Of a stretch of DNA of 35,721 bases, positions 21,699-35,721 are shown piece by piece. Made by a program: the position numbers and the translations under genes. The notes beneath the pieces were generated by a model, which saw only the letters and a list, made by a program, of their open reading frames with translations, was not told where the DNA came from and searched no databases. Position 1 is the first letter of the stretch. Each line of letters starts with the position of its first letter. The DNA is taken from contig JAGASP010000008.1 in NCBI GenBank assembly GCA_017621695.1, positions 1-35,721 of the forward strand, given 5' to 3'. This DNA is from Clostridia bacterium (GTDB lineage: Bacteria; Bacillota; Clostridia; Oscillospirales; CAG-272).

Positions 21699-24600
21699 AT
21701 GAAATTTACGAAAAAGTTCATATCCCTGCTCTTAGCTGTTCTCATGTTGTGCGGCACGCTGACTTGCTTCTCCTTCCTCACGGTTTCTGCGGCTGAGTCT
21801 GAGAGCTCTACCGAAACCGGCACGGGTGTTGACGAGGTGAAGACCGATTACCTCAATCAGGTTTTTGCCACCCCCGAAGAGAAGCTGGCTACCATGAAGC
21901 TGATGACCACCAAGGGCAATTACCAGCTCTATGCGGATCAGAACTCCGGTGAGGTAGCCGTAAAGGATTTGACTTCCGGTCAGATCCTGTTCACCAACCC
22001 CTATGACATTGGCGCTACCACCGCTGTGGAAAGCGTTAAGATGGAGTTGATGTCTCAGATCATCGTCCGCTATACCGAAAACGGCCGTCCTAAGGAGTAT
22101 TTCAGCTACGAATACGCTGCTGCTCGTGACCAGATCAAGGTCAAGAACATCAAGAACGGTATCCGTGTGGAGTACACCATTGGTCGTGAGGAAGCAAGAC
22201 GCCTCGTTCCCCGTATGATCGAGCAGTCCCGTTTCGAGACGCTCATCCGCGCCCCCTTGCTTGAGTACTACGATAATAACGAAGAGAACTTCTACTTCAA
22301 GCAGTTCATGTCCTACTACCAGCTCAAGGGTCTGGAGTTCTGCTCCTCTGACCGTCTGAAGGATGACCTTCTGTCGGTTTACCCCGTGGTTTCCGATATG
22401 AACATCTACGTCTTCGACCCCACGGCTACCACCGTCGAGCTTGAGAAGCGCGAGGAGGACATCAAGACCGCTTGTCCTAACTACTCCTACGAGGAAATGG
22501 ACGTTGACCACCAGATGACCGAGTATGAGAGTGAAGATGAGAATCCTCCCCTCTTTAAGCTGGCTCTGGAGTATACCCTCGGCGAGGACGGCTTCTCTGT
22601 CCGTCTCCCCGCAAACGGTATCCGCTTCAACGAGTCCAAGTTCCAGCTCGAAAGCATTTGCGTCCTGCCTTACATGGGCGCAGGTAACATTGCTTACGAC
22701 GGTTACACCTTCTTCCCCGATGGTTCGGGCGCGCTGTTTGCCTTTGAGGACCTCGTGGACGTAACCAGCAACTCTGTTGCCAGCAAGGTCTACGGTACCG
22801 ACTACGCGTACCACAAGATCTCCGGTACTTACCAGCAGACTGTTCGTTATCCTGTCTTCGGTATCGTCGAAAAGACCAGATACTATGACTTTAACGAATT
22901 CAATGAGTCTTCGGGTGAAACCGAAACCACGACCATCAACGGTATGGTCTATGACATCCTGAAGAAGTACCAGAACGGCGAGCTCACCGCGCTGCCCACT
23001 TCTCTGACCCAGTATAATAAGCTGATCGCAGGCTTGGTCGATGCAGAAGAGAACATCGTCAATCGCGGTTATGTCGCTATCATCGAAGAAGGCGACGCAA
23101 TGGCCGAGATCGCAACCAAGCACGAGGGTGTAAAGCATCCTTACGACTCGATCCAGATGAGCTTCTACCCCAGACCTCAGGATACGTACAACATGGCAGA
23201 CGCAATCTCGGTTGGTACCGCTACCGACTGGACGGTCGTTTCTACCCGTAAGTACGTCGGTAACTACAAGATCCACTACGTCATGCTGACCGACTCCGGC
23301 ATTGCCGAGCAGAAGGAGCTGCCTGCGGATTCTTGGTATGATGCTACCTGGCTGGGTATGGCAATGGCTTACCGTGACTACCTCGTGGACAAGGGCGTCC
23401 TGACTCCCCTGACCGAGGAGCAGACCTCCGGTGATATTCCTCTGTACATCGAGGCATTCGGTACCATTGAGACCGTAGAAAAGATCATGTCCATCCCTGT
23501 GGAGGTCATGAAGCCGCTGACAACCTTCCAAGACGTTCAGACCATGTATGCTGAGCTCGCGGCTAAGGGTGTCAACAACATCAACTTCAAGCTGACAGGT
23601 CACGCCAACGGCGGTTTCTTCTCCGATGTGCCCTATAAGCTGAAGTGGGAAAAGTCTGTCAGCAAGGAAACCAAGTTCCAGGAGCTGATTGACTTCGCAA
23701 GCTCCATCAACGACGGCAACTATGACGTTTTGAAGGATTATGCAAAAGAGAATGAGATTTTCGAAACCGACGAAGAATATGCCGCGTTCGAAAAGCAGGT
23801 TGACGAGATGAGCCAGAACGCAAACCTCGGCATTTACCCTGATTTTGATTTCTCTTACGTTTACCGCTTTACCGACGGTCTCTTCGACGGTCTGAACCTC
23901 CGCAAGCACGCAGTCAGAACCATCGACGACCGTTACACCAGTAAGCGTCTCTACCTGGCTACCCGCCAGAGACACACGGGCTACTTCCAGTTGGCGATCT
24001 CTCCCGCATACTTCAGCCACTTCTATGAGAAGCTCGTGGATAACTACCTCACGTATGATAACGTTTCGGGTATCTCGGTTGCATCCCTCGGTGATTCCTT
24101 GAACTCCGACTTTGATGAGGACGAACCTTACAACCGTGAGGACTCCAAGAGCTTCGTACAGCAGGCTCTCGAGTACTTCACCTCCGAAAAGGGCGCTAAC
24201 CTCGAAGTCATGGTCAACGGCGGTAACGCTTACACCTGGCAGTTCGTCGATCACATTCTGGGCGCTCCCCTGGATTCCAGCCGTTACATCCGCGCAAGCT
24301 ACAGCGTTCCTTTCCTGGGCGTCGTTCTGCACGGCTATGCCAACTTTGCAGGTTCTCCCCTGAACATGGAGGGTGACCTCAACTACGCAAAGCTGAAGGC
24401 AATCGAAAACGGTGCTGCTGTTTACTTCACGCTTTCCTATCAGAACACGCAGGTTCTGAAGGAAGACTTCCTGACCAGCCAGTATTACTCCATTCGTTAT
24501 GATATCTGGTTCGATGACGTTGTCGAGATCTATAACGACCTCAACACCGTTACCAAGGATCTGCAGGATAAGCTGATCGTTGGCCATGAGTTCCTGTCCG

Positions 24601-27600
24601 GTATGCGTGTACCTGACGTTGATGAGCTCTACAAGGATATCATGGACGATTACAACGCCGTTCTGGACTACCAGAACAACAAGGCCGAGTATGAAGAGAA
24701 GCTTAGAAACGAAGCCGTTGCCGATGCCCGCGACAAGATCGCCAGCACCGAGGAGCAGGCTAAGGCCTTCATCCAGCTCTGCCTTGACAACTACACGGGT
24801 ATGAGCGGTGCTGCTTACCTGTACGTTACCGGTGAAAGAAGCTTCGAGCGCCGCTATGCAACCTTCGTTGAGGCTGATGCCGTTCTGAAGGACGTCACGG
24901 CTCGCTATGAGAGTGCTTCCGAGGAAGAGAAGGCTGAACTGGAAGCTCAGCTGAAGTCCGCCGAGACCTCCCGTAAGCAGGCAAGAGCTCAGCTGCTCAC
25001 CTACATCCGTAACATTTCCCGTGTCATTGCTGTGACCGAGAATGCATACGAAAACCTCAGCAAGCTGCTGGTTGATGCCGAGGAAGGTCAGCTTCTGATC
25101 AACTCTACCGACGGCATTCCCCAGAGCATCATCGACGAGATCGCTGTTCAGCTTGCTTCCACCAAGAGCATGATGGAGCAGAAGCTGGGTATCACCTTCG
25201 ATATGACTGTAGAGAAGGCTGAACTCGATACCTTCCTGCATACCCACATCACGCAGCTCATTCTCAATACTTACGGCGACGGTCAGGATACGACCGTTGG
25301 TAAGATGGAGAACATCTACGACATGATCAAGGATCAGACCTACGGTCTCACCATGAATGATCTGGAGCTCCTCCGTTATCTGGAGGCAAACAAGGATCTG
25401 TCTGATACCGATCTGGTTGAAAAGTACGGTCTGGATGATCCCAAGTCCTCTGTCAAGGGTCTCGTGACCTACATGAGAGAGCTTTTGAGCGACATTTACA
25501 CCTTCGATCCTTCGATGTCTGATGAAGCCGCTGACGGCGAATTCAGCGAAGTCGATGAACACCTGATCGATTACTACCTGACCATGCTCATGGCTCGTCT
25601 GTCCGCTCTCCCGGACAACAGCGTTATTCCCACGCTGAAGTTCAATCCCAAGCGCTTCCAGGATGGTAAGGAAACTTCCAATACCAACAATATCTCCGCT
25701 GTAACCAAGAAGATTCAGGATGCCGTGAACAAGGCTCTGCTCAATGCCACCGGCGCGATCGGTAAGGTTGAGGACGGCAACTATGATCTCGAGGCAGTCT
25801 ACAGCGAAGAGAATATGTCCAAGCTGATTGATGAGTGCGTTAAGATCGTCAACGATCGTGTGACATCTTCTACGCTGACTGAAAGAGTTGAGTACCTCGG
25901 TGACGAGGCAATGCTCAGAGCTGACCTCCGCGATTACATCGAGGCTCTCTACTATCAGAAGGCTCTGGATAAGATTTCTCCTGCAACTACAACCACCACG
26001 CTGAAGGTGATGAAGGTTTCCTCCATGACCAAGGATAGCCTGACGCTGATCGTTGAGCGCTTCATGAACAGCTACACCAATGATAAGGCTACCGCATACG
26101 AAACTTACGTTGCTCTGATGAGCGATGCTAAGGTGCTGGCTTCTGTTGATAAGATCGCTGCTGCACTCAAGACCGGTTACGGTGATGTCAAGGCAGAGAT
26201 CCTGGAGGGTCTGTCTGTTGTGGCCGCTCAGAAGATCGTTGGCACCAAGGCTCCCGGCCTCAGCTTTGAAACTGAAGCAAAGGCTCCCGTTCTGCATCTG
26301 GATCTTCCCGAAACTTCCGAGGAAGAGGGTGCTGTAACTCTGTCGGCTGCAATGAAGGAAGTCGATAAGATCCTCAAGGCGGCTCTTGCTAAGGATCCCG
26401 CTGATACCGAGGAAACCGCCATTGCCGCTGTAAAGACATACCTTGAGGCTTATGATTTCACCGATGGCGCAAACCGCGATGAAGAAATTGCCGCTTATGT
26501 CAACTATGCTTACACCAAGGATGCCGTTGAAGCAGAAATGGCTGCCGCTATCGAAAAGGCAACCAAGGAAATTGATGAGATCATCGCTGCCGCAGTTCCT
26601 ACTGCAACCGATGAAACCATCGCCAAGGTCGTTGCTGACGTAACTGCAGTTCTCGCTCCTCTGGCATTTGTCGAGGGCGTTGACCGCGACGTAGAAATCG
26701 CTGATTACGTCTACTTCGTCTACCTCACCGACTGCACCACCCGTATTTATGATAACTTCTACTACGATGTAGCACTCGGTACCGCAGATGCTCAGATCCG
26801 CGAGGAAGTGAAGGTTCTGCAGAATGCCGTTGCGGCTGAACTGCCCGAAAACGCCGACGTTTATGACGTTTACAATGCGGTTCTTGCAGCACTGGCCAAC
26901 AAGGACAACAACGTGGTTGGCCTGACCACTGCTATCGCAGCTGCTATTCCTCATCGAGCAACCGATAAGAACAAGATCTCCGATGACGTTCTGGACTACT
27001 ACTGCTACCTGCTGCTCAATGGCTTTGAGGGTTATTCCCTGGGCGAAGAGGCTCCCGAGATCGGTAGCCTGAGCGTTCTGAATGATTCTCAGAAGAAGAA
27101 CGCACTTGACCAGATCAAGAGCCGCTTCAACACAACCATTGCAGATCTCATCAACAAGGCTAAGATCGATACCGAGAGAGGCGCAATCGCAGCTCTGGCA
27201 CTTTCGGACACCTTGAAGGGCGCTGAAATTGACTTGGATGAAACCGTCAATAGCGTCGTCGAGTATCTGCAGGATAGTAAGTTCCTGATCCAGCAGAAGG
27301 ATGAGTCCGACGCGGATTTCGCCGCTCGTTGTGAGGCAATCGTTCCTGAGCTTAAGGCTTACTTCCAGTACTTGTATTACACCGCAGTGATTTCTGAGTT
27401 GGGTGCTAACAAGCTGCCCACCTTCAGCGTATCTGAAATTTACGGTGCCGACCTGTTCACCGCAGGTCAGGGTCTGAAGTCCCTGCTCCGTTGGTACGTG
27501 ACTCAGTACGCAGGCATGATGACCGAGGAGGAAATCGATAGCTTGATCGGCTCCATCGTTTCCGGTGACGACGAGGAAGAGAACGATCCTTCCAAGTATC

Positions 27601-27773
27601 TGTCCGATGACGGTCGCATTGTTGCCGTTACTTACGGTACCCCCAACAATGAAGGCAGCTATGATGCTTACAGAACCTTCGTTCTGAACTACAACAACTT
27701 CTCTGTCAGCGTGGTTTACGATGGCGTCCAGTACACCATCCCCGCTTTCAGCTACGTTGTTGTGGATTATTGA
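21699..27773 (+). CDS. Giant secreted DUF5696-type protein with helical-repeat insertion
   Basis: A 2024-residue protein with a signal peptide (about 1-33, ending VSAAES) and no lipobox, LPXTG motif or membrane segment. Residues about 35-960 resemble DUF5696 proteins, which sit next to this kind of transporter in other Bacillota. An N-terminal beta-rich part (YQLYADQNSGEVAVKDLTSG, PYMGAGNIAYDGYTFFPDGSGALF) precedes a barrel-like part (about 575-960: IPLYIEAFGTIE, IYPDFDFSYVYRF, SVASLGDSLNSDFDEDE) that looks like a glycoside hydrolase fold. Residues about 970-1970 are a long acidic, Ala-rich helical region with internal repeats. The last 50 residues return to a beta-type ending (TYGTPNNEGSYDAYRTFVLNYNNFSVSVV). 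Glycan binding or cleavage is inferred from context; no activity is shown. Confidence 0.82.
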   Translation: MKFTKKFISLLLAVLMLCGTLTCFSFLTVSAAESESSTETGTGVDEVKTDYLNQVFATPEEKLATMKLMTTKGNYQLYADQNSGEVAVKDLTSGQILFTNPYDIGATTAVESVKMELMSQIIVRYTENGRPKEYFSYEYAAARDQIKVKNIKNGIRVEYTIGREEARRLVPRMIEQSRFETLIRAPLLEYYDNNEENFYFKQFMSYYQLKGLEFCSSDRLKDDLLSVYPVVSDMNIYVFDPTATTVELEKREEDIKTACPNYSYEEMDVDHQMTEYESEDENPPLFKLALEYTLGEDGFSVRLPANGIRFNESKFQLESICVLPYMGAGNIAYDGYTFFPDGSGALFAFEDLVDVTSNSVASKVYGTDYAYHKISGTYQQTVRYPVFGIVEKTRYYDFNEFNESSGETETTTINGMVYDILKKYQNGELTALPTSLTQYNKLIAGLVDAEENIVNRGYVAIIEEGDAMAEIATKHEGVKHPYDSIQMSFYPRPQDTYNMADAISVGTATDWTVVSTRKYVGNYKIHYVMLTDSGIAEQKELPADSWYDATWLGMAMAYRDYLVDKGVLTPLTEEQTSGDIPLYIEAFGTIETVEKIMSIPVEVMKPLTTFQDVQTMYAELAAKGVNNINFKLTGHANGGFFSDVPYKLKWEKSVSKETKFQELIDFASSINDGNYDVLKDYAKENEIFETDEEYAAFEKQVDEMSQNANLGIYPDFDFSYVYRFTDGLFDGLNLRKHAVRTIDDRYTSKRLYLATRQRHTGYFQLAISPAYFSHFYEKLVDNYLTYDNVSGISVASLGDSLNSDFDEDEPYNREDSKSFVQQALEYFTSEKGANLEVMVNGGNAYTWQFVDHILGAPLDSSRYIRASYSVPFLGVVLHGYANFAGSPLNMEGDLNYAKLKAIENGAAVYFTLSYQNTQVLKEDFLTSQYYSIRYDIWFDDVVEIYNDLNTVTKDLQDKLIVGHEFLSGMRVPDVDELYKDIMDDYNAVLDYQNNKAEYEEKLRNEAVADARDKIASTEEQAKAFIQLCLDNYTGMSGAAYLYVTGERSFERRYATFVEADAVLKDVTARYESASEEEKAELEAQLKSAETSRKQARAQLLTYIRNISRVIAVTENAYENLSKLLVDAEEGQLLINSTDGIPQSIIDEIAVQLASTKSMMEQKLGITFDMTVEKAELDTFLHTHITQLILNTYGDGQDTTVGKMENIYDMIKDQTYGLTMNDLELLRYLEANKDLSDTDLVEKYGLDDPKSSVKGLVTYMRELLSDIYTFDPSMSDEAADGEFSEVDEHLIDYYLTMLMARLSALPDNSVIPTLKFNPKRFQDGKETSNTNNISAVTKKIQDAVNKALLNATGAIGKVEDGNYDLEAVYSEENMSKLIDECVKIVNDRVTSSTLTERVEYLGDEAMLRADLRDYIEALYYQKALDKISPATTTTTLKVMKVSSMTKDSLTLIVERFMNSYTNDKATAYETYVALMSDAKVLASVDKIAAALKTGYGDVKAEILEGLSVVAAQKIVGTKAPGLSFETEAKAPVLHLDLPETSEEEGAVTLSAAMKEVDKILKAALAKDPADTEETAIAAVKTYLEAYDFTDGANRDEEIAAYVNYAYTKDAVEAEMAAAIEKATKEIDEIIAAAVPTATDETIAKVVADVTAVLAPLAFVEGVDRDVEIADYVYFVYLTDCTTRIYDNFYYDVALGTADAQIREEVKVLQNAVAAELPENADVYDVYNAVLAALANKDNNVVGLTTAIAAAIPHRATDKNKISDDVLDYYCYLLLNGFEGYSLGEEAPEIGSLSVLNDSQKKNALDQIKSRFNTTIADLINKAKIDTERGAIAALALSDTLKGAEIDLDETVNSVVEYLQDSKFLIQQKDESDADFAARCEAIVPELKAYFQYLYYTAVISELGANKLPTFSVSEIYGADLFTAGQGLKSLLRWYVTQYAGMMTEEEIDSLIGSIVSGDDEEENDPSKYLSDDGRIVAVTYGTPNNEGSYDAYRTFVLNYNNFSVSVVYDGVQYTIPAFSYVVVDY
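26352..26747 (+). repeat. Tandem protein repeat inside the DUF5696-type gene
   Basis: Two consecutive units of about 69 codons, residues about 1552-1614 and 1621-1683. They share the pattern KE-D-I--AA, a DET/EET segment, F-(T/E)G--RD-EIA-YV and a final Y-D. Weaker relatives appear on both sides (for example the DYYCYLLL, EHLIDYYLTMLM and ELKAYFQYLYYTA segments). Confidence 0.65.
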
Positions 27774-27800: not shown

Positions 27801-28775
27801 ATGACCAATGAAGCTAATCTTCAGGGAACGGTCAGCGCGCCCAAGGCCAAGAAACGTAAAGTCGCGTCTCTTGACCGCAAAAAGGCTCGGGCGGGTTGGG
27901 TATTCGTTCTGCCTTTCGTGATCGGTTTTGCATTCGTTTATCTGCCTATCATCTGGAACTCCATCTGGATGAGTTTCCATGAGTTGAAAATTATCACCGG
28001 TGGTGGTTACGAGCTCATTTGGTGTGGTTTTGATAACTACAAATGGGCACTCACTGAGGATCCCAGCTTCGTTCAGACCCTGATTACGGGTCTGGGCGAG
28101 CTCCTCTTCGACATTCCCGCAATCCTGATTTTCTCCCTGTTCATGGCCATTCTTCTGAACCAGAAGATGGCAGGCCGTGCCGCATTCCGTGCGATCTTCT
28201 TTATCCCCGTTATTCTGTCTACCGGTATCATGGAGTCCATCGAGGGTCAGAACATTCTGGGTACGATGATGGAATCCGGTATCAACGACGGTTCGGGCGG
28301 TAGCGCTTCTACCGAGATCGTATCCGCTATGGATATCGGCCGTCTGTTCTCCTCTATGAAGATCGGTACCGATCTTGTGGAATACGTTGTTGATATGATT
28401 AACAACATCTACGGTATCGTTAACCGTTCCGGTGTACAGATGCTGATCTTCCTGGCCGGCTTGCAGTCGATCTCGCCCGCCATTTATGAGGCTTGCCGTA
28501 TCGACGGTGCAACCTCTTGGGAGACCTTCTGGAAGATCACCTTCCCCATGATCAGCCCTATGATCCTGGTGAACGGTGTCTATACCATCATCGACTCCTT
28601 TACCACCGATGCCAATACGGTTATGACCTACATCTCTACGGTGTATCGTTCGACCGATGGTCAGGTGCGTTCCTCCGCGATGGCTTGGATGTACTTCTTG
28701 ATCGTTGTGCTGATCATCCTCGTCGTTGTCGGTATCTTCTCTGCTTTTGTCTTCTATCAAAAGCGTGACGCGTAA
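27801..28775 (+). CDS. Sugar ABC transporter permease (LplB/UgpA type), pair 2
   Basis: A 324-residue permease with a basic, Lys-rich N-terminus and six predicted helices. The EAA loop is near residues 222-245 (SISPAIYEACRIDGATSWETFWKITFP). Between helices it carries an unusual external stretch of about 50 residues (NILGTMMESGINDGSGGSAS onward). It follows the DUF5696-type gene by 27 bases and is preceded by GAGAGG. It forms a second pair with the next gene; neither has a binding protein of its own nearby. Confidence 0.93.
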   Translation: MTNEANLQGTVSAPKAKKRKVASLDRKKARAGWVFVLPFVIGFAFVYLPIIWNSIWMSFHELKIITGGGYELIWCGFDNYKWALTEDPSFVQTLITGLGELLFDIPAILIFSLFMAILLNQKMAGRAAFRAIFFIPVILSTGIMESIEGQNILGTMMESGINDGSGGSASTEIVSAMDIGRLFSSMKIGTDLVEYVVDMINNIYGIVNRSGVQMLIFLAGLQSISPAIYEACRIDGATSWETFWKITFPMISPMILVNGVYTIIDSFTTDANTVMTYISTVYRSTDGQVRSSAMAWMYFLIVVLIILVVVGIFSAFVFYQKRDA

Positions 28776-28787
28776 GGAGGTGGCACA

Positions 28788-29888
28788 ATGGATGTAAATA
28801 TGCAACAACCCAAGATCAAAAAGGAATCCAAGAACAAGATCAAGGTTGAATTCGAAAGAACACCTCTGAAGGAGAGACTGAAGGCGAAATTTCTGAATCT
28901 CTACTTCTTCCAGCAGGTCGGGTGGTACATTTTCCGCCTCGTGCTGCTGATCGGTATCTCTTACGTCGTGCTGTATCCCTTCTTTACCAAGATCGCCGGT
29001 TCCTTCATGTCTCCCGAGGATTTCGTGGACGTGACGGTACGTTTGATCCCTAAGAACTTTACACTCGACACCTACAAAGCCGTGCTGACGGAATTGGATT
29101 ATTTCCAGGCTTTCCGCAATACCTTCATCATTTCTTTGATCTGTGGTATCCTCCAGACCTTCGTCTGCTGTGTTATCGCATACGGTCTTGCAAAGTTCAG
29201 ATTCCGCGGCAACAAGCTCATCATGGCTTTGGTTATCCTGACCATGATCGTGCCTCACCAAACGCTCCAGCTCTCCATGTTCATGGGCTTCCGTTACTTC
29301 GACATTTGGGGTATTCTCTCCCTCTTGAGCGGCGGTGCGTCTATTGATATTGAAGGCTTTGAGGCAATCAACGAGGTGCTGGCCGGTATCAAGATCCTGA
29401 ATCTTGAGGACCACGCGCTGGGTCTCACCAACACCTACGCACCTTTGATCATTCTGTCTGCTACGGGTCTTGCCTTCAAGAACGGTCTGTATATCTTCAT
29501 GCTGCGCCAGTTCTTCAACGGTGTGCCTGATGCATTGGAAGAGTCCGCGTACATCGACGGTTCGGGCGTGTTCCGCACCTTCATTACCATTATCCTGCCT
29601 CTGTCTATCCCCATGATGGTGACGGTATTCCTGTTCGCCTTCTGCTGGCAGTGGATGGATGACTTCTACACGAACCTGTTCTTTACCACCAACAAGATCG
29701 TACTGATGCCTGACATCGTAGAGATCCCCAGCTCGCTGAAAATGGATTATGCAGGTCAAAACCTGTATTACGCAGCGATCCGAAACACCTGTGGTATTTG
29801 TATTATCTTGCCTCTGGTTGTTCTCTACTGCTTCTGCCAGAACTTCTTGGTACAAGGTATCGAGCGCTCCGGTTTGACCGCAGAATAA
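28788..29888 (+). CDS. Carbohydrate ABC transporter permease (MalG/YtcP type), pair 2
   Basis: A 366-residue partner of the preceding permease, longer than the usual 280-300 residues. Extra length comes from a charged N-terminal tail (about 45 residues) and a loop near residues 180-215 (GGASIDIEGFEAINEVLAG). The EAA loop is near 250-275 (GVPDALEESAYIDGSGVFRTFITIILP). The AAGGAGG site is strong. It is the last gene of the operon, with a strong terminator 15 bases after the stop. Confidence 0.93.
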   Translation: MDVNMQQPKIKKESKNKIKVEFERTPLKERLKAKFLNLYFFQQVGWYIFRLVLLIGISYVVLYPFFTKIAGSFMSPEDFVDVTVRLIPKNFTLDTYKAVLTELDYFQAFRNTFIISLICGILQTFVCCVIAYGLAKFRFRGNKLIMALVILTMIVPHQTLQLSMFMGFRYFDIWGILSLLSGGASIDIEGFEAINEVLAGIKILNLEDHALGLTNTYAPLIILSATGLAFKNGLYIFMLRQFFNGVPDALEESAYIDGSGVFRTFITIILPLSIPMMVTVFLFAFCWQWMDDFYTNLFFTTNKIVLMPDIVEIPSSLKMDYAGQNLYYAAIRNTCGICIILPLVVLYCFCQNFLVQGIERSGLTAE

Positions 29889-29977: not shown

Positions 29978-30439
29978 TCAGCTTTCGAGTTGCCGCCCCA
30001 AAAAGCTCGCGGCGGTTTGAATGAGCTTGGATTCTGCATCGGGCAGCATGGTGTTTGCGGAGGATTGATCTCCCCTGACCGAAACGACGCACCCAACCAG
30101 ATCACCCTCAGAAAGAATGGGCATGGCGCAGTGTATAAAATGCGTGCCGCCATCCTTCAGAAGGGACTTTCTGTCTTCGTTGGGCGCCGCCACGTAAAGG
30201 GAACGACCTTCCATGATGCGCTCCATCTCCTCGGAAAGAGACTTGTCGTTGTATTCCTTTTTGGAAATGCCTGCGCAAGCGATAACGCTGTCGCGGTCGC
30301 AAATGGCGACCTCCAGTCCACAGGTCTTGTGCAGGGTCTCAGCGTACTGACTTGCAAAGGCGGCAAGCTCGCCGATGGGAGAATACTTCTTGAAAATGAC
30401 CTCGCCTTCGCGGTCGGTGTAAATTTCAAGGGGGTCGCC
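29978..30439 (-). pseudogene. spoVT: spoVT, 3' part (codons from GDPLEI to the stop), split by the element
   Basis: SpoVT is an AbrB-type regulator of forespore genes late in sporulation. The 153 codons here correspond to residue 31 onward of the 178-residue B. subtilis protein as I remember it: GDPLEIYTDREGEVIFKKYS, then AICDRDSVIACAGISKKEYN and the final AASFLGRQLES. The first about 30 residues, half of the AbrB DNA-binding domain, are missing and replaced by recombinase sequence. No frameshift or stop is seen in the remaining part, so it could become functional again after exact excision. The 5' part should lie beyond 35721 at the other end of the element. Confidence 0.9.
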
Positions 30440-32200
30440 GCCACTGATAACATTGACACGAAAAACCTTATCGCGCTGATTTCTTGCGCGTTGGGCTGCC
30501 ACTATGGAAAAATCCTCTGTGGCTCTTTCGATATTTTCCGTGTCTGAATTAAAATTTACGGGTACTTCGCTTTCTTCGTTATGCTTCATATGCTCAATCG
30601 TTCCCGTGCGCAAAAGCTCGTCAACGTCTGCTTGAAGCTTGATTTCGATGTTATCCTCGTATATTATAATTCGATCAATGATAAGGTGTAGCGTGTGTTT
30701 GTCAAGTTTATCCTTTTCGATGATATCGTCGAATATCTCGATAACCGACCGTGCTACACGGTTAACCTTTACAATCGTATTTGTGGTATCGGCTACCAAG
30801 GCGAGCTGATTGGTCAAGCCTTCGATACGGTTATTTGCTTCTTCAATCAGAGCATCGTAGGTTTCTTCCATCACCTGTGCGTTATCCTTGTGCCTTGCCA
30901 TATCACGAATTTTTTGACGGGCGAGCAATTTCAATTCTTCGCGTTCCGCTTCGATCTGCGCCCTTAATTCGTCGGCTGCAAGCATACCACTATCGGTTGC
31001 TCTCTGTTCGTGGCTGAGCATTTCTTCAAGGATGCGAAGCATAGCCGCCGAGTTATCCCGTACTCTTTTTACATACCGCTTTAGCATTTTATCAAGGAAG
31101 TCGGCTCTCACGTGATGCGAGGTGCATCCTGCAAGTCCTCTTACGTGATATGTTCCGCAAGTATATGCTTCTGCAAGGTCTTTACGGCTCATAGCGAACA
31201 TCGGACTTCCGCAATCACCGCAGAACATAAATCCCGAGTAGGTATTATCGTATTTTTTAACACCTCGGTAGTGGTTGGTGGAGCGTTGCTTGAGCATTTC
31301 CTGTGCCGTAGCAAATACTCTGTAATCCACAATCGGTTCGTGATGATTTTCAAATACGATATGTTCACTCTCGTCAAGGGCTACGTCAGCTCCGTTGATC
31401 TTCTTTCTGCGGAACTTTCTCTCTCGCAATGTGCCGATATAAAAATCGTTACAGAGGATTTCGGACACGGTAACGATACTCCATTGCTCTCTGACCTTGC
31501 CTTTGTATTCATCTCCCGCCGCTTCTTTACGCGCCTTTTCTCTCATTCTCGGTGTGGGAATGCTTTGGTCGGTCAGATGGTTTGCAATCCTTTTATATCC
31601 GTATCCGTCAATATAGAGCTTGAATATCGTTCTTACGACCTCTGCCGCCGCTTCATCCACCTCGAAGGTCATTTTCTTTGAGTTGGTGATAACGTATCCA
31701 TACGGCACGGAGCATATCCATTCTCCTTTTGCCTGTCTGCTTGCGATAACATCGGATACCTTACGGCTTGCATCGGTTACGGGCATTTCATTGACGAAGA
31801 AGTATAGCTTGATCTTCATCCAATCGTCCGTGTGGTCTTGGTAGTAGTCAACTCCGTCACCGATGGCAATGATACGAATATCGTGTTCGGAGAGATCCTC
31901 AAACTCTGCAAGACCTTTACCCGTTCTTCTTGAAAAACGGCTCAAGTCTTTAACGATAAGTATATCGTATTCTCCCCTTAACAGCTTGGGGCGAAGGCGC
32001 AACCAATAATCGGGACGCTGTTCAAAGGTATAACCCGAATGATCTCGATCCTCATAGTAATCTACCGTACTTGTCGGAAAATGAAGCCTACAATAATCAT
32101 CAATGATTGCCTTTTGGTTCTCAATACTCGTATTGTCCTTGTCAAGCTCTGTATCAACGGAGATACGAGTGTAGGCTGCAATCTTATATTTTGGTATCAA
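29978..32200 (-). CDS. Large serine recombinase fused in frame to the 3' part of spoVT
   Basis: A 740-residue reading frame. Residues 1-about 150 are the resolvase domain with the catalytic Ser at about 14 (AYTRISVD) and LIVKDLSRFSR. About 155-270 is the recombinase domain, and about 322-375 a zinc ribbon (CGDCG, TCGTYH, GC). A coiled coil and a C-terminal recombinase tail end near residue 587 (NQRDKVFRVNVISGG). From residue 588 the sequence is SpoVT from GDPLEI to the natural end, including its GAF-like domain. The enzyme would integrate and excise the element. I chose TTG at 32200: an AAAGGAG site precedes it, and the promoter at 32236-32264 shows that the ATG at 32245 lies upstream of the transcript. 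The fused product may be only a by-product of integration. Confidence 0.93.
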   Translation of the reverse strand: MIPKYKIAAYTRISVDTELDKDNTSIENQKAIIDDYCRLHFPTSTVDYYEDRDHSGYTFEQRPDYWLRLRPKLLRGEYDILIVKDLSRFSRRTGKGLAEFEDLSEHDIRIIAIGDGVDYYQDHTDDWMKIKLYFFVNEMPVTDASRKVSDVIASRQAKGEWICSVPYGYVITNSKKMTFEVDEAAAEVVRTIFKLYIDGYGYKRIANHLTDQSIPTPRMREKARKEAAGDEYKGKVREQWSIVTVSEILCNDFYIGTLRERKFRRKKINGADVALDESEHIVFENHHEPIVDYRVFATAQEMLKQRSTNHYRGVKKYDNTYSGFMFCGDCGSPMFAMSRKDLAEAYTCGTYHVRGLAGCTSHHVRADFLDKMLKRYVKRVRDNSAAMLRILEEMLSHEQRATDSGMLAADELRAQIEAEREELKLLARQKIRDMARHKDNAQVMEETYDALIEEANNRIEGLTNQLALVADTTNTIVKVNRVARSVIEIFDDIIEKDKLDKHTLHLIIDRIIIYEDNIEIKLQADVDELLRTGTIEHMKHNEESEVPVNFNSDTENIERATEDFSIVAAQRARNQRDKVFRVNVISGGDPLEIYTDREGEVIFKKYSPIGELAAFASQYAETLHKTCGLEVAICDRDSVIACAGISKKEYNDKSLSEEMERIMEGRSLYVAAPNEDRKSLLKDGGTHFIHCAMPILSEGDLVGCVVSVRGDQSSANTMLPDAESKLIQTAASFLGRQLES
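30425..30450 (-). other. Attachment-site junction between spoVT and the element
   Basis: The minus-strand sequence changes from recombinase-specific codons (AATGTTATCAGT) to spoVT codons (GGCGACCCCCTTGAAATT) around 30439-30442. Intact spoVT genes read R-E-G-D-P-L here, so the crossover is probably within the GGC GAC region. The exact core cannot be fixed without the other end. Confidence 0.7.
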
Positions 32201-32235
32201 TATCAAATTCTCCTTTCGGTTTATTTGGTAACAAC

Positions 32236-32264
32236 ATTGTACCATATATTTAGAGTAATGTCAA
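32236..32264 (-). promoter_or_regulatory. Sigma-A promoter of the recombinase gene
   Basis: On the minus strand, perfect TTGACA (32259-32264), a 17-base spacer and TACAAT (32236-32241). The -10 box overlaps the ATG at 32245, which therefore cannot be the start of translation. Confidence 0.88.
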
Positions 32265-32344: not shown

Positions 32345-32587
32345 TCAGCGGCATTTTTCCGCTTCAACTTCTTTTCTTGCGTTCACCTCCAAGGTGTGCT
32401 TTAGCAAATCCTTGGTAAGTGTCAGCAAATCTCCCCTTCCGGAACTGAAAATCACTACGCGATATTTCCTTTGTTTATATTCCTTAAACAAAGGCTTCAA
32501 TCCTTCGCGTAGGACTGTGTCCTGAGATTCAGCGTTGGTGAGCCATATCTCAACATATTTCTCATCATCGTGAACAATCTTTAGCAT
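32345..32587 (-). CDS. Small conserved-looking protein of unknown function (element cargo)
   Basis: An 80-residue soluble protein that I do not recognise. It starts MLKIVHDDEKYVEIWLTNAE and has an alternating beta/alpha pattern with a central strand (YRVVIFSSGRGD) and a Lys/Glu-rich helix at the end. I chose the ATG at 32587 because AGGAGG lies 9 bases before it; the GTG three codons upstream touches that site. It is followed at once by a strong terminator. It could be a small regulator or a transfer accessory protein. Confidence 0.75.
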   Translation of the reverse strand: MLKIVHDDEKYVEIWLTNAESQDTVLREGLKPLFKEYKQRKYRVVIFSSGRGDLLTLTKDLLKHTLEVNARKEVEAEKCR

Positions 32588-32604
32588 ACAACTCACCCTC
32601 CTGT

Positions 32605-32718: not shown

Positions 32719-34884
32719 TTATAATGTGTGTTCCCACTCACGATCTTTCTTACGCTCCTTTCTTGGTCTGTGCTGTGGAATGGTGGTACAATCCTGCGGC
32801 TGACGGTAGCTTTCGATATTAGAAAGATTTCCGACAATGTTAAGGATGTCCGTTGTGATGGTGAGGAAGGTGTTTTGCGCCATCCTCGTCAGAGCAACGG
32901 CTGCCGACTCGTTGCCTGCCTGCGCCGACCTATTCAGATACTCGATTGCTTTCTCCATATCGAACATATCCGACTCAAAGAGGTAGATCTGCGCGAGTCG
33001 ATAATCGGCAAACATATTTCCGCGCGCCGAAGCCTTCTCCAAGTGTTCAATCGCTTTGGCAATATCCTTCTTTACGACCTTGCCCTCCATATAATACTTG
33101 CCGAGGGTGTAGGCGGCAAATTCGTTGCCGTCTTGCTCCGCTTGGAATAGCATACGGAAACCGTCGTTGCGGTTCGCTCCAAAGAAGCTATCCTCAACAT
33201 ATATCTTGCCGAGCAAGGTCGCGCCGTATAGGTTGCCACCTACGGCAGAACGGTAGAGCCACTCTGCCGCATTTTCGATGTCTTGGTCGTAGCGGATGCC
33301 GTAATAAAGCATCTTACCGATGCGATATTGCGCCACGTGATAACCGCCCTCTGCCGAGCGTTCAAGGAAATGATCTCCCCACGCTTCGTGATAATACTTG
33401 CTGCTCTCGTCAAAATAAATCCGAGATAGGCGGTACATCGCATAGACGTTTCCGTTCCGCGCTTGATACTGAAGGTCACGAAAGCTCTTTATCAGCTCAT
33501 CGTCCTCGTCATCAAACGGAAGCTCATCACGCATAATTTCGTCGCCCTCAAAGAAAGCGTTTAGGTCGTCAGCAGACAAATGATCGCGGATACGAGTGCG
33601 GAGAGAAGAACCGACGAGAACATCGTCCCGATGATCCACCACTTCATATCCGAGATCAGCTTCGTCAGAGCCGATACCTTCTCGTCCGTGGTCGCGCTGA
33701 GCTTCTTCAAAAATTCTTCGCGCTTCTTCCCATCCTGTGACAAGGTTTCCTTGTTTTCCGTGAGAAGATATTGCAGATGGGGGCTTATCGAGTCCACCGA
33801 GTTCTTCATATCCCTGCCGAGCGTTTTCGTCCATTCCTCCATCCACTCTTGATGGCTGACGTAATTCATATACATCATTTGGTGCATCTGATCGAGTGTC
33901 GCCATCTTGGAAAGCTCCGCGTACAGCTCCGGCTGAAACATCATCACCGCCTGCATATACTCTTGGAACGCTTCCCATTGCTCCTTCGGTATCGGGTACG
34001 CCATCGTCGCCCTTTGAGGTGTGTCCATTGTTTGAAGCACCGACTTCGATGCGGCTTTCAGCTTGTTGAATGCCGAGTTGGTCTGTGCCTGATTGTTGTT
34101 GTCTGATTGCAAATTCATACTGCATATACTCCTTTAGAAATTTAGATTCGTGAAGTTTGTTATCCCTTACCTTCATCCCATTCGGGCAGGTGTAGGTGAT
34201 ATATTTACGGCTATCCGTCCACTTAACCGTATAGCCTGCCGACTCCATAAGAGCTATAAACTCGTCCTTAGAGCCGACCATTGTCATCGCTTGCTCAATG
34301 TCATTGATACATTGGAATTTCCAACTGTCGCCCTTGAGCGCGGCGCGATATTCTCTTGTGCCGATAGATTTCAAACCGAAGGTCTGCTTATATTCGGGCA
34401 GCACCGAGAGATTATGAGCCTCGCATATCTCATCACTCAGCCTGCGCATCTGCTCGATAGAGCGTGGGCCGAGCTGGATTTTTTTGCCGTTCTCGTAGCT
34501 AACGCTGTTGATAACAAAATGATTATGCACGCGCTGAACACCGTCGCTCTCGGCATCAAGATGTGTGCCGACGAGTACCTCGTAGCCGGGAAACATCTTC
34601 TCGGCAAGCTCGATGCCGATACGGTGCGCTTCATCGTAAGAAGTGATCTCGCCGGGGCGGAAGGATTGCTCGTAATGATAAAAGTACGTTCCTTTCCGCT
34701 TGCCGAAAAGATTTTTCGTCGCCATAAATTCCTCATAGGCTGACTCTCCGATACAATTCACGCCCGACAGATACCGTCTGCCGTTCTCGTCAAGTGTCTT
34801 GGCATCCTGCGAAACATAATCAATGACCGCCTTCATAGAGCTTGGATTTTGCTTTGACTCTTGGATATAATTACACGTTGCCAT
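32719..34884 (-). CDS. MobA-type relaxase with C-terminal Sel1 repeats
   Basis: A 721-residue protein with the relaxase domain in residues 1-about 240. The three-His signature is visible as THLDAE (H108) and RVHNHFVINS (H120 and H122), and the N-terminal part has candidate catalytic Tyr residues (CNYIQESKQN, VIDYVSQD). It would nick the element's oriT and lead the strand into the recipient. Residues about 255-441 are hydrophilic and low-complexity, exactly where another gene overlaps in a different frame. Residues about 460-675 are Sel1-type repeats (AEWLYRSAVGGNLYGATLLGKIYVE and similar), unusual for a relaxase. The start could be the ATG at 34884 or a TTG two codons before; the 5' end overlaps mobC. 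Confidence 0.9.
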   Translation of the reverse strand: MATCNYIQESKQNPSSMKAVIDYVSQDAKTLDENGRRYLSGVNCIGESAYEEFMATKNLFGKRKGTYFYHYEQSFRPGEITSYDEAHRIGIELAEKMFPGYEVLVGTHLDAESDGVQRVHNHFVINSVSYENGKKIQLGPRSIEQMRRLSDEICEAHNLSVLPEYKQTFGLKSIGTREYRAALKGDSWKFQCINDIEQAMTMVGSKDEFIALMESAGYTVKWTDSRKYITYTCPNGMKVRDNKLHESKFLKEYMQYEFAIRQQQSGTDQLGIQQAESRIEVGASNNGHTSKGDDGVPDTEGAMGSVPRVYAGGDDVSAGAVRGAFQDGDTRSDAPNDVYELRQPSRVDGGMDENARQGYEELGGLDKPPSAISSHGKQGNLVTGWEEARRIFEEAQRDHGREGIGSDEADLGYEVVDHRDDVLVGSSLRTRIRDHLSADDLNAFFEGDEIMRDELPFDDEDDELIKSFRDLQYQARNGNVYAMYRLSRIYFDESSKYYHEAWGDHFLERSAEGGYHVAQYRIGKMLYYGIRYDQDIENAAEWLYRSAVGGNLYGATLLGKIYVEDSFFGANRNDGFRMLFQAEQDGNEFAAYTLGKYYMEGKVVKKDIAKAIEHLEKASARGNMFADYRLAQIYLFESDMFDMEKAIEYLNRSAQAGNESAAVALTRMAQNTFLTITTDILNIVGNLSNIESYRQPQDCTTIPQHRPRKERKKDREWEHTL
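33561..34118 (-). CDS. MobB-like membrane protein nested inside the relaxase gene
   Basis: A 185-residue reading frame wholly inside the relaxase gene, in another frame on the same strand. Its ATG is preceded by a perfect AAAGGAG (34135-34129) at 10-base spacing. The product looks like a real protein: a Gln/Asn-rich start, helical middle parts (KEQWEAFQEYMQAVMMF, HQEWMEEWTKTLGRDMKNSV), a coiled-coil-like stretch and a C-terminal membrane helix (WWIIGTMFSSVLLSALVSAI) close to the stop. In the host frame the same DNA encodes a disordered, low-complexity linker, which suits overprinting. In ColE1- and RSF1010-type plasmids mobB is likewise nested in mobA. The name is by analogy; I see no firm homology. 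Confidence 0.8.
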   Translation of the reverse strand: MNLQSDNNNQAQTNSAFNKLKAASKSVLQTMDTPQRATMAYPIPKEQWEAFQEYMQAVMMFQPELYAELSKMATLDQMHQMMYMNYVSHQEWMEEWTKTLGRDMKNSVDSISPHLQYLLTENKETLSQDGKKREEFLKKLSATTDEKVSALTKLISDMKWWIIGTMFSSVLLSALVSAIICLLTT

Positions 34885-35278
34885 CGTCAATCACATCCTC
34901 TCTCGGTGGCATATTACCGCTTGCTACCGCGCCGTTTGCTTCTTCAAACAGACCGTTGATTGCGACATAATTTCGTGTCAACGCCTCGGTCGCGGCGGTA
35001 AGATTGACGGTCGTGATGCGCCCTTGGTGAGCGAGCATTGTTAGCTGATTGAGATTTCTTCCGATGGCTTTCAGCTCGTGAAGCGTTGGCTTCAGCTCGT
35101 CGATCTGATAGATCGTCTTGCCTTGAGCCGCCATTAAGAGATACTCACGCTGTGTCATTCCCGTGCGCTTAATCGCTTTGAGAATTTTGTTTCGCTCGGA
35201 TTCACTTGCCCAAAAGGATATTTTTTTATCGCGCAGGCGACCGTTTTGCTTTGTGTTGTTGTCTTGATTTTCTATAAT
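34871..35278 (-). CDS. mobC: MobC-type relaxosome protein, probable non-standard start codon
   Basis: A small relaxosome accessory protein that helps open oriT for the relaxase. The standard frame begins at the ATG at 35158 (95 residues: MTQREYLLMAAQGKTI, LKAIGRNLNQLTMLAHQGRI), but the frame is open and MobC-like for 40 more codons upstream: RLRDKKISFWASESERNKIL and KAIKRTG are the typical MobC N-terminus. No ATG, GTG or TTG exists there before the stop. A GAGG site lies 6 bases before an ATT codon at 35278, giving 135 residues, the family's usual length. I therefore propose ATT (or the ATA after it) as start. It overlaps the relaxase start by 14 bases, indicating coupling. Confidence 0.82.
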   Translation of the reverse strand: MIENQDNNTKQNGRLRDKKISFWASESERNKILKAIKRTGMTQREYLLMAAQGKTIYQIDELKPTLHELKAIGRNLNQLTMLAHQGRITTVNLTAATEALTRNYVAINGLFEEANGAVASGNMPPREDVIDDGNV

Positions 35279-35717: not shown

Positions 35718-35721
35718 CAAA

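Follow-up and report, generated by a model that had tools for sequence, protein, structure and literature searches.

Sporulation genes can be interrupted by integrated elements: skin lies in sigK, gin in gerE, SPbeta in spsM and yin in yabG. Here we describe an element which splits the coding sequence of another sporulation gene, spoVT. It occupies one end of a 35,721-nt contig (JAGASP010000008.1 of assembly GCA_017621695.1, a Clostridia bacterium), the whole of which is called the window below. Like the known sporulation gene-intervening elements, it is a serine recombinase element which splits its target at a short attachment (att) core, and its excision would restore the gene. It differs from them in having a forespore regulator as target, in the in-frame fusion of its recombinase to this target, and in its presence in many genera. 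In the titles and abstract beginnings that our searches of the open-access literature gave, we found neither an element in spoVT nor a serine recombinase fused to its target, and the words SpoVT and AbrB are absent from the main text of a survey of large serine recombinases (PMC10083194).

In its gene content the element resembles those of the Tn4451 type, in which a large serine recombinase near one end is accompanied by mobilization genes. Tn4451 also has a GA core, as proposed below for the spoVT element. However, the recombinase of the window has no Pfam match to DUF4368, one fixed target is used in most copies of the spoVT element, and its att site is predicted to lie in the recombinase open reading frame (ORF). 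The TnpX structure in the PDB (2mhc) matches residues 23-133 of the fusion ORF only.

Integrases which disrupt their own gene are described as exclusively archaeal in a passage of a review on archaeal integrases (PMC8371274). According to the same source, the suicidal integrases of SSV1, pTN3 and pT26-2 are tyrosine recombinases, the gene of which is cut into inactive parts (PMC8371274). The spoVT element shares with them the predicted recombination site within the integrase's own gene, which is altered by integration. In contrast to them, its enzyme is bacterial and of the serine type, and instead of a tyrosine recombinase cut into inactive halves we found whole catalytic and DNA-binding domains, with only the C-terminal tail being swapped. 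The spoVT elements may be regarded as a bacterial counterpart, of a different kind, to the archaeal recombinases that disrupt their own gene. With its att site so placed, the enzyme would be the first bacterial, and the first serine-type, integrase of this arrangement known to us.

In mycobacteriophage BPs the phage attachment site (attP) is part of the repressor gene, and upon integration the repressor becomes shorter and loses a degradation tag (PMC4557955). In both cases attP would be situated in a reading frame and integration would change the C-terminus of an element protein, which in BPs has a regulatory effect. However, in BPs this protein is the repressor, while in the spoVT element it would be the recombinase, which gains a host domain. 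Whether a serine integrase integrates or excises is commonly attributed to a separate directionality factor. The natural att placement proposed here would make the C-terminus of the enzyme differ between the two states, so that its role becomes directly testable. Engineered fusions of integrases with recombination directionality factors (RDFs) carry an extra C-terminal protein and can favour the reaction between attL and attR (PMC5737554). Such fusions are man-made, whereas the extra domain in the spoVT element is a part of a host protein gained by integration. The SPbeta YokA-YotN chain of PDB entry 9dxd, likewise man-made, also represents a serine integrase with an extra C-terminal protein.

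The two halves of spoVT and the att site

The original prediction, made from the window sequence, stated that a mobilizable element splits spoVT and that the recombinase frame, having no stop codon at the junction, continues into SpoVT from about residue 31 to its natural end. Indeed, a single open frame of 755 aa extends over positions 29978-32245 of the minus strand. It comprises a large serine recombinase, which has no stop codon of its own at the junction, and the SpoVT 3' part in frame, without any internal stop. Comparison with the intact spoVT genes of the genomes G117 and G160 placed the junction at SpoVT codon 32; the in-frame fusion was thus borne out. The recombinase portion contains all three domains of a large serine recombinase according to Pfam, namely the catalytic Resolvase domain (residues 22-175), Recombinase (199-321) and the zinc beta-ribbon (Zn_ribbon_recom, 336-392). 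They are followed by SpoVT_C (626-754, E 4.4e-37), the domain for which a search had been proposed. Fusion residues 596-754 correspond to model positions 23-180 of NCBIfam spore_V_T and align with the SpoVT structure 2w1t of the PDB. The mobilizable nature of the element is reflected in the window by its own recombinase together with relaxase and MobC-like genes.

Since the window contig stops at position 35,721, the far end of the element lies outside the window. The missing spoVT 5' half, which was expected at this other end, was located by an AbrB-type search (as a truncated match) on a second contig of the same genome, C62, at positions 1508-1741 of the minus strand. Here 33 SpoVT residues are encoded first, and the frame then runs through 44 element codons to a stop codon. 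A profile search of the genome, which is 90.6% complete, gave a single match to SpoVT_C, and no second spoVT copy was found. In G160, a genome of the same genus, an intact spoVT has the window flank on one side (82% identity, 2.4 kb) and the C62 flank on the other side (75%, 1.0 kb). This synteny with both flanks indicates that the window contig and C62 are the two sides of one interrupted gene. On C62, genes for a Phd-type antitoxin and a RelE-type toxin (L003:256-829) are located beyond the 5' half, near the left end of the element. Another ORF beyond the 5' half, presumably TnpV-like and in this respect reminiscent of Tn4451, had no match in NCBIfam.

The two junctions of the window's element have GACCC in common, a shared core as it had been anticipated, and the att core encodes Gly-Asp-Pro on both sides. 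Base counts at the junctions (51 left, 89 right and 34 intact contexts) alone did not settle the crossover base. However, the element ends carry inverted arms, GTCAATGTT and AACATTGAC, the outer edges of which are each 21 bases away from a GA at the centre. For the 34 elements of which both ends were available (35 pairs were entered, and G219 was omitted as its right end was absent from the fetched stretch), the arm complementarity was 0.77 when centred on GA and did not exceed 0.39 at any other centre tried; the shuffled control reached 0.26 (standard deviation 0.016, 500 shuffles). The symmetry also holds across the two contigs of the window's genome. Such a short, symmetric site around a central dinucleotide, here GA, is characteristic of large serine recombinases. 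Because the arm symmetry centres on it, the GA in SpoVT codon 32 is likely the crossover dinucleotide.

The predicted attP and the tail of the recombinase

A point that goes beyond the original prediction is the position of attP, which, judged from the sequences at both ends, would be located within the recombinase ORF and in the same frame as spoVT, with the C-terminus being exchanged upon integration. The element codons after the severed spoVT 5' half remain in the frame into which the recombinase would run in a circular form. Among 49 distinct ends, this frame, the circle tail, runs without a stop for 18 codons or more in 47, and in 39 of the 49 a stop follows at 25-30 codons. The two exceptions are L069, a frameshifted second copy, and L167, a reverse insertion. 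The window's own circle tail of 44 codons is longer than usual. Two additional severed ends, L239 (in G243) and L240 (in G237), which are not among the 49, have tails of approximately 70 codons, still ending in the pattern F..A...LA.R.

The circle tail is conserved at the protein level. After exclusion of L069 and L167, the remaining 47 tails were reduced to 41 by removing near-identical ones. Beyond the att arm, these 41 non-redundant tails scored on average +0.74 BLOSUM62 units per column when translated in the recombinase frame. The two remaining sense frames gave -0.67 and -0.48, no antisense frame exceeded +0.09, and a shuffled stop-free control gave -1.02 (standard deviation 0.035). The commonest residues are P-x-x-T-T-L-T, then four variable positions and F-C-x-A-M, and finally x-x-L-A-K-R.

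The sole junction of the attP type was seen in L127 (G218:C12), where the right end of one element, with the recombinase, is joined at a contig end to a left-end tail, an arrangement that a tandem array or a circle would show. Over the 18 residues seen, this tail differs by one residue from the left-end tail of the same element. Because the predicted attP lies in the recombinase frame and the tail is conserved, integration in the usual orientation would swap the C-terminus of the recombinase.

Recurrence and transfer between genomes

SpoVT_C was detected in 156 of 196 genomes of the window's family. Among the matches listed, at least 12 family genomes from 10 genera have this domain in a recombinase fusion, one of these fusions being truncated on its recombinase side by the end of the contig. 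The fusion point is identical in all 12 loci read (the window's and those of 11 other family genomes), and a severed spoVT 5' half is present in 10 of the 12 fused genomes. Class-wide, 7 of 391 genomes contain close relatives of the recombinase at E 1e-120 or better; six of the seven are fused, and L250 is not.

A scan of GTDB gave 479 recombinase relatives, and the best 80 of the 479 together with the four closest viral contigs were read as 84 loci. In 73 of these, the recombinase frame is read through to the SpoVT stop, eight are cut by a contig edge, and three are arranged otherwise. One fixed site in spoVT is thus used in 73 of the 84 loci, in contrast to the many targets of the DUF4368 recombinase clade. 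The recombinases of L120 and L166 are located elsewhere and have unrelated tails, and spoVT is intact in the corresponding genomes. In L167 (G242:C11) the element is reversed between the spoVT halves; its recombinase end abuts the 5' half in antisense and is unfused, and the 3' half lies on the same strand approximately 12.7 kb from the 5' half. Given the non-palindromic GA core, this reverse insertion was unexpected.

Fifty genomes bearing relatives from the best 80 of the 479 were tested for SpoVT_C and for the spoVT 5' half. SpoVT_C occurs solely as a fusion in 46 of them. A fusion together with a complete spoVT at a separate locus, named in the original prediction as an argument against the interruption, was not found: none of the 46 has an unfused SpoVT_C copy. 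The remaining four are G212 and G241, in which spoVT is intact, G242 with the reverse insertion, and G218, in which the match is cut by a contig end. Of the 50 genomes, 39 contain the severed 5' half, which was read in every case; two have an intact spoVT and in nine neither was detected at the threshold used. We conclude that this is a recurrent element family at spoVT and not a single occurrence.

Six elements could be delimited on single contigs, with lengths of 8,046, 14,050, 20,180, 20,336, 20,520 and 33,626 bp. They include elements in the complete sequence of Ruminococcus bicirculans 80/3 chromosome II and in the record of A. massiliensis AT3. The recombinase is common to the six, while their cargo differs. 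Further genomes have, by coordinates alone, the two halves on a shared contig, separated by as much as 85 kb in G204. No relaxase homologue was found by tblastn in the 8 kb element of G038 (L044), and therefore not every member of the family qualifies as mobilizable.

Several of these loci show particular features. The cargo of the Anaerotruncus massiliensis AT3 element (L224) resembles by eye a type I restriction-modification system, and that of the 33.6 kb element of G128 (L042 and L085) includes a surface polysaccharide cluster and a Fic-like gene, also recognized by eye; both elements have a relaxase by homology. In G245:C2 (L230/L231) the spoVT halves are on opposite strands approximately 24 kb apart, with the 3' half fused to the recombinase, which corresponds either to an inversion or to a misassembly. 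Two severed 5' halves in the same orientation, approximately 7.5-15 kb apart, are present in L233 (G228:C16), L241 (G219:C12) and G056:C51. This suggests tandem insertions carrying along a copy of the spoVT 5' part. In G056 a frameshift is present in one of the two tails (L069). The genome G002 of the window's genus likewise has a severed 5' half, near an end of the 7,487 bp contig C46 (L088), without a SpoVT_C match; its 3' half is missing or unassembled.

In pairs of fusions, the recombinase often shows far lower divergence than the SpoVT part. The synonymous divergence (dS) between L147 and L150 is 0.015 for the recombinase and 0.99 for SpoVT, and for L130, L134 and L149 it is 0.05-0.09 versus 0.57-1.77. 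Further, elements of G085 and G176, which belong to two further genera of the family, share 92-94% DNA identity with the right end in the window. The low divergence of the recombinase as compared to that of SpoVT indicates recent transfer between species into the same base of spoVT. In most pairs dS is higher for SpoVT than for the recombinase (the exceptions are L145/L151, L113/L115, L115/L119 and L115/L116), and thus much of the SpoVT divergence is older than the insertions. The ratio of nonsynonymous to synonymous divergence (dN/dS) of the fused SpoVT_C is 0.01-0.18 in the computable pairs. We rejected this purifying selection as proof of a function of the fusion, since the divergence largely predates the insertions. 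A plasmid collection yielded 265 matching records; identity stayed below 60% in every one, and each covered less than 80% of the query. In a phage collection, two records named 'Bacteriophage sp.' were found: L267 (MT836658.1, 9.2 kb) with the recombinase and the SpoVT fusion, and L266 (MT839487.1, 4.2 kb) with the recombinase, ending near the junction.

The proposed C-terminal exchange, the hosts and the gene content of the window

The interpretation that we favour, and which we hold to be fairly probable, is that of an integrative, mobilizable family which uses a single integration site, the GA in spoVT codon 32, and swaps the C-terminus of its recombinase upon integration. The anatomy, the site and its symmetry, the recurrence, the horizontal spread and the coding nature of the tail are firm; what we presume is that recombination runs both ways and that the fusion protein is produced. 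In the circle, the recombinase would end in the conserved tail, usually of 25-30 residues, and this tail-bearing enzyme would perform the integration. Integration at the GA would split spoVT and join its first 33 codons to the recombinase tail; in exchange, the recombinase would receive the remainder of SpoVT from codon 32 onwards, with its GAF-type domain. The enzyme of the integrated state may behave differently, being either latent or competent for excision only with a partner, for example the conserved small protein encoded upstream. Excision would reverse both exchanges and restore spoVT, and until then the host would be without SpoVT.

The small upstream protein has 83 aa. Matches to it (tblastn, E 1e-3) were found in 50 of the 84 closest loci, in 77 of which at least 700 bp upstream of the recombinase are present. 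The match is located at most 450 bp upstream of the recombinase in 43 loci, 1.2-3.1 kb upstream in six, and on the other strand in one. The residues W15, S49, G50, L54 and L61 are invariant in 21 sequences. Pfam, NCBIfam and further searches revealed no convincing family for this protein; its position makes it a candidate directionality factor.

Our best guess is that the C-terminal exchange represents a state-dependent change of the recombinase, with a neutral by-product as the main rival. According to this rival, integration into spoVT is real, the shared frame is a by-product of the Gly-Asp-Pro att core, and the exchange is without function, any tail being tolerated by the linker that follows the last recombinase domain. 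We consider this possible, albeit doubtful. The common core would set the frame once for the whole family, recombinases with unrelated tails exist elsewhere (L120 and L166), and the reverse insertion in G242 leaves the recombinase unfused. Moreover, serine integrase tails can be dispensable (PMC5737554). However, protein-level conservation of the circle tail extends far past the att arm, and a dispensable tail would not need the stop at 25-30 codons seen in 39 of 49 ends. In addition, a protein fused to the C-terminus of a serine integrase can alter its directionality, as in the integrase-RDF fusions (PMC5737554). It is tempting to go further and to propose a reversible domain exchange, in which the GAF part of the host SpoVT would serve as a built-in controller of the recombinase and set the timing of excision; this we regard as somewhat unlikely. 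If true, the recombinase would exist in two gene-encoded forms, an integrating one with the native tail and an integrated-state one with a host-derived sensor domain. An assembly or binning artefact uniting unrelated fragments is extremely improbable. The two spoVT halves of the window's genome are indeed on two contigs of a draft genome, but the end symmetry holds across them, 11 other family genomes have the same fusion point, which also argues against chance, and in six elements, including those of R. bicirculans 80/3 and A. massiliensis AT3, both ends are on one contig. For the family, an artefact was therefore rejected.

Several observations weigh against the favoured interpretation. Neither the empty site nor the circular form was seen in the window's genome, and the search for the circular form, which had been suggested from the window, was negative, as the attP-type pattern occurred in 0 of the 196 family genomes. 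The pattern matched 15 viral contigs, none with a Gly-Asp-Pro core and none with a recombinase by tblastn in the stretches examined; these matches look like chance. A second frame is also open for at least 18 codons in 32 of the 49 ends, so that openness alone is a weak proof and the conservation test carries the coding claim. Since the element of G242 is reversed without fusion, the fused state is not obligatory. The intact fused SpoVT_C is weak evidence of a function of the fusion, because the elements move often. Finally, the last 21 residues of phiC31 integrase were reported to be non-essential (PMC5737554), and therefore the tail swap may be neutral.

The original prediction also drew a parallel to skin, which applies to the splitting of a sporulation gene. 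In Clostridioides difficile, however, spoVT is a forespore gene under the control of sigma F and possibly sigma G (PMC3789822), whereas gerE, a gene interrupted by a comparable element, acts in the mother cell (PMC5595907). With a forespore target, excision would reach the germ line, a logic unlike that for mother-cell genes. An element timed by sporulation like skin, gin and SPbeta, the excision of which would restore SpoVT, with the GAF domain possibly sensing the sporulation state, appears unlikely to us. It would be in line with the target, as a C. difficile spoVT mutant forms no heat-resistant spores (PMC3789822), with the lack of another spoVT in the fusion-bearing genomes, and with the hosts. 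In 22 genomes tested, the window's included (20 with interrupted spoVT and two, G117 and G160, with intact spoVT), SpoIVA and SASP were each found in 21, and each was kept in 19 of the 20 interrupted hosts. Borkfalkia (G243), however, carries the fusion with neither a SpoIVA nor a SASP match, which indicates that sporulation genes are not needed for the presence of the element. Further, if SpoVT acts in the forespore as in C. difficile, excision would strip the germ line of the element unless the circle is kept. If the hosts sporulate like C. difficile, excision or loss of the element would be needed. In gut Clostridia, Ruminococcus and Anaerotruncus among them, elements have repeatedly inserted into a gene without which C. 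difficile forms no heat-resistant spores, and this may bear on those gut Clostridia which have sporulation genes but are not known to sporulate.

The features of the locus are summarized in Table 1. The true start of the recombinase is probably near position 32200.

Table 1. Features of the spoVT element and its host flank in the window.
Feature	Position	Strand	Basis
Host flank, two ABC transporter permeases	27801..29888	+	Syntenic beside intact spoVT in G160 and G117
spoVT 3' part, SpoVT codon 32 to natural stop, in frame with recombinase	29978..30436	-	Comparison with intact spoVT
SpoVT_C (GAF-type) domain	29984..30370	-	Pfam PF15714, E 4.4e-37; genome profile search, 4.6e-38
GA dinucleotide, predicted crossover core of right junction	30435..30436	-	Symmetry centre in 34 elements
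Element-side att arm, GTCAATGTT and 12 bases before GA; also encodes VNVIS.G of recombinase	30437..30457	-	
Large serine recombinase, element-encoded part	30437..32245	-	Pfam Resolvase, Recombinase, Zn_ribbon_recom; alignments
Small conserved protein, 83 aa, upstream of recombinase; candidate directionality factor	32345..32596	-	tblastn across relatives
MobA/VirD2-type relaxase with Sel1 repeats	32719..34890	-	Pfam PF03432, E 9.5e-31
NikA/MobC-like mobilization protein	34871..35158	-	Pfam PF21983, E 9.5e-6, slightly short of the family cut-off

A prophage identity was rejected, as no phage structural family was matched by Pfam in seven scanned proteins of the window. The GC content is 0.41-0.47 across approximately 30.5-33.5 kb and about 0.5 on the adjoining host side. 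Upstream of both ABC permeases, an ORF of 2,024 residues with three DUF5696 stretches is located at positions 21699-27773 of the plus strand.

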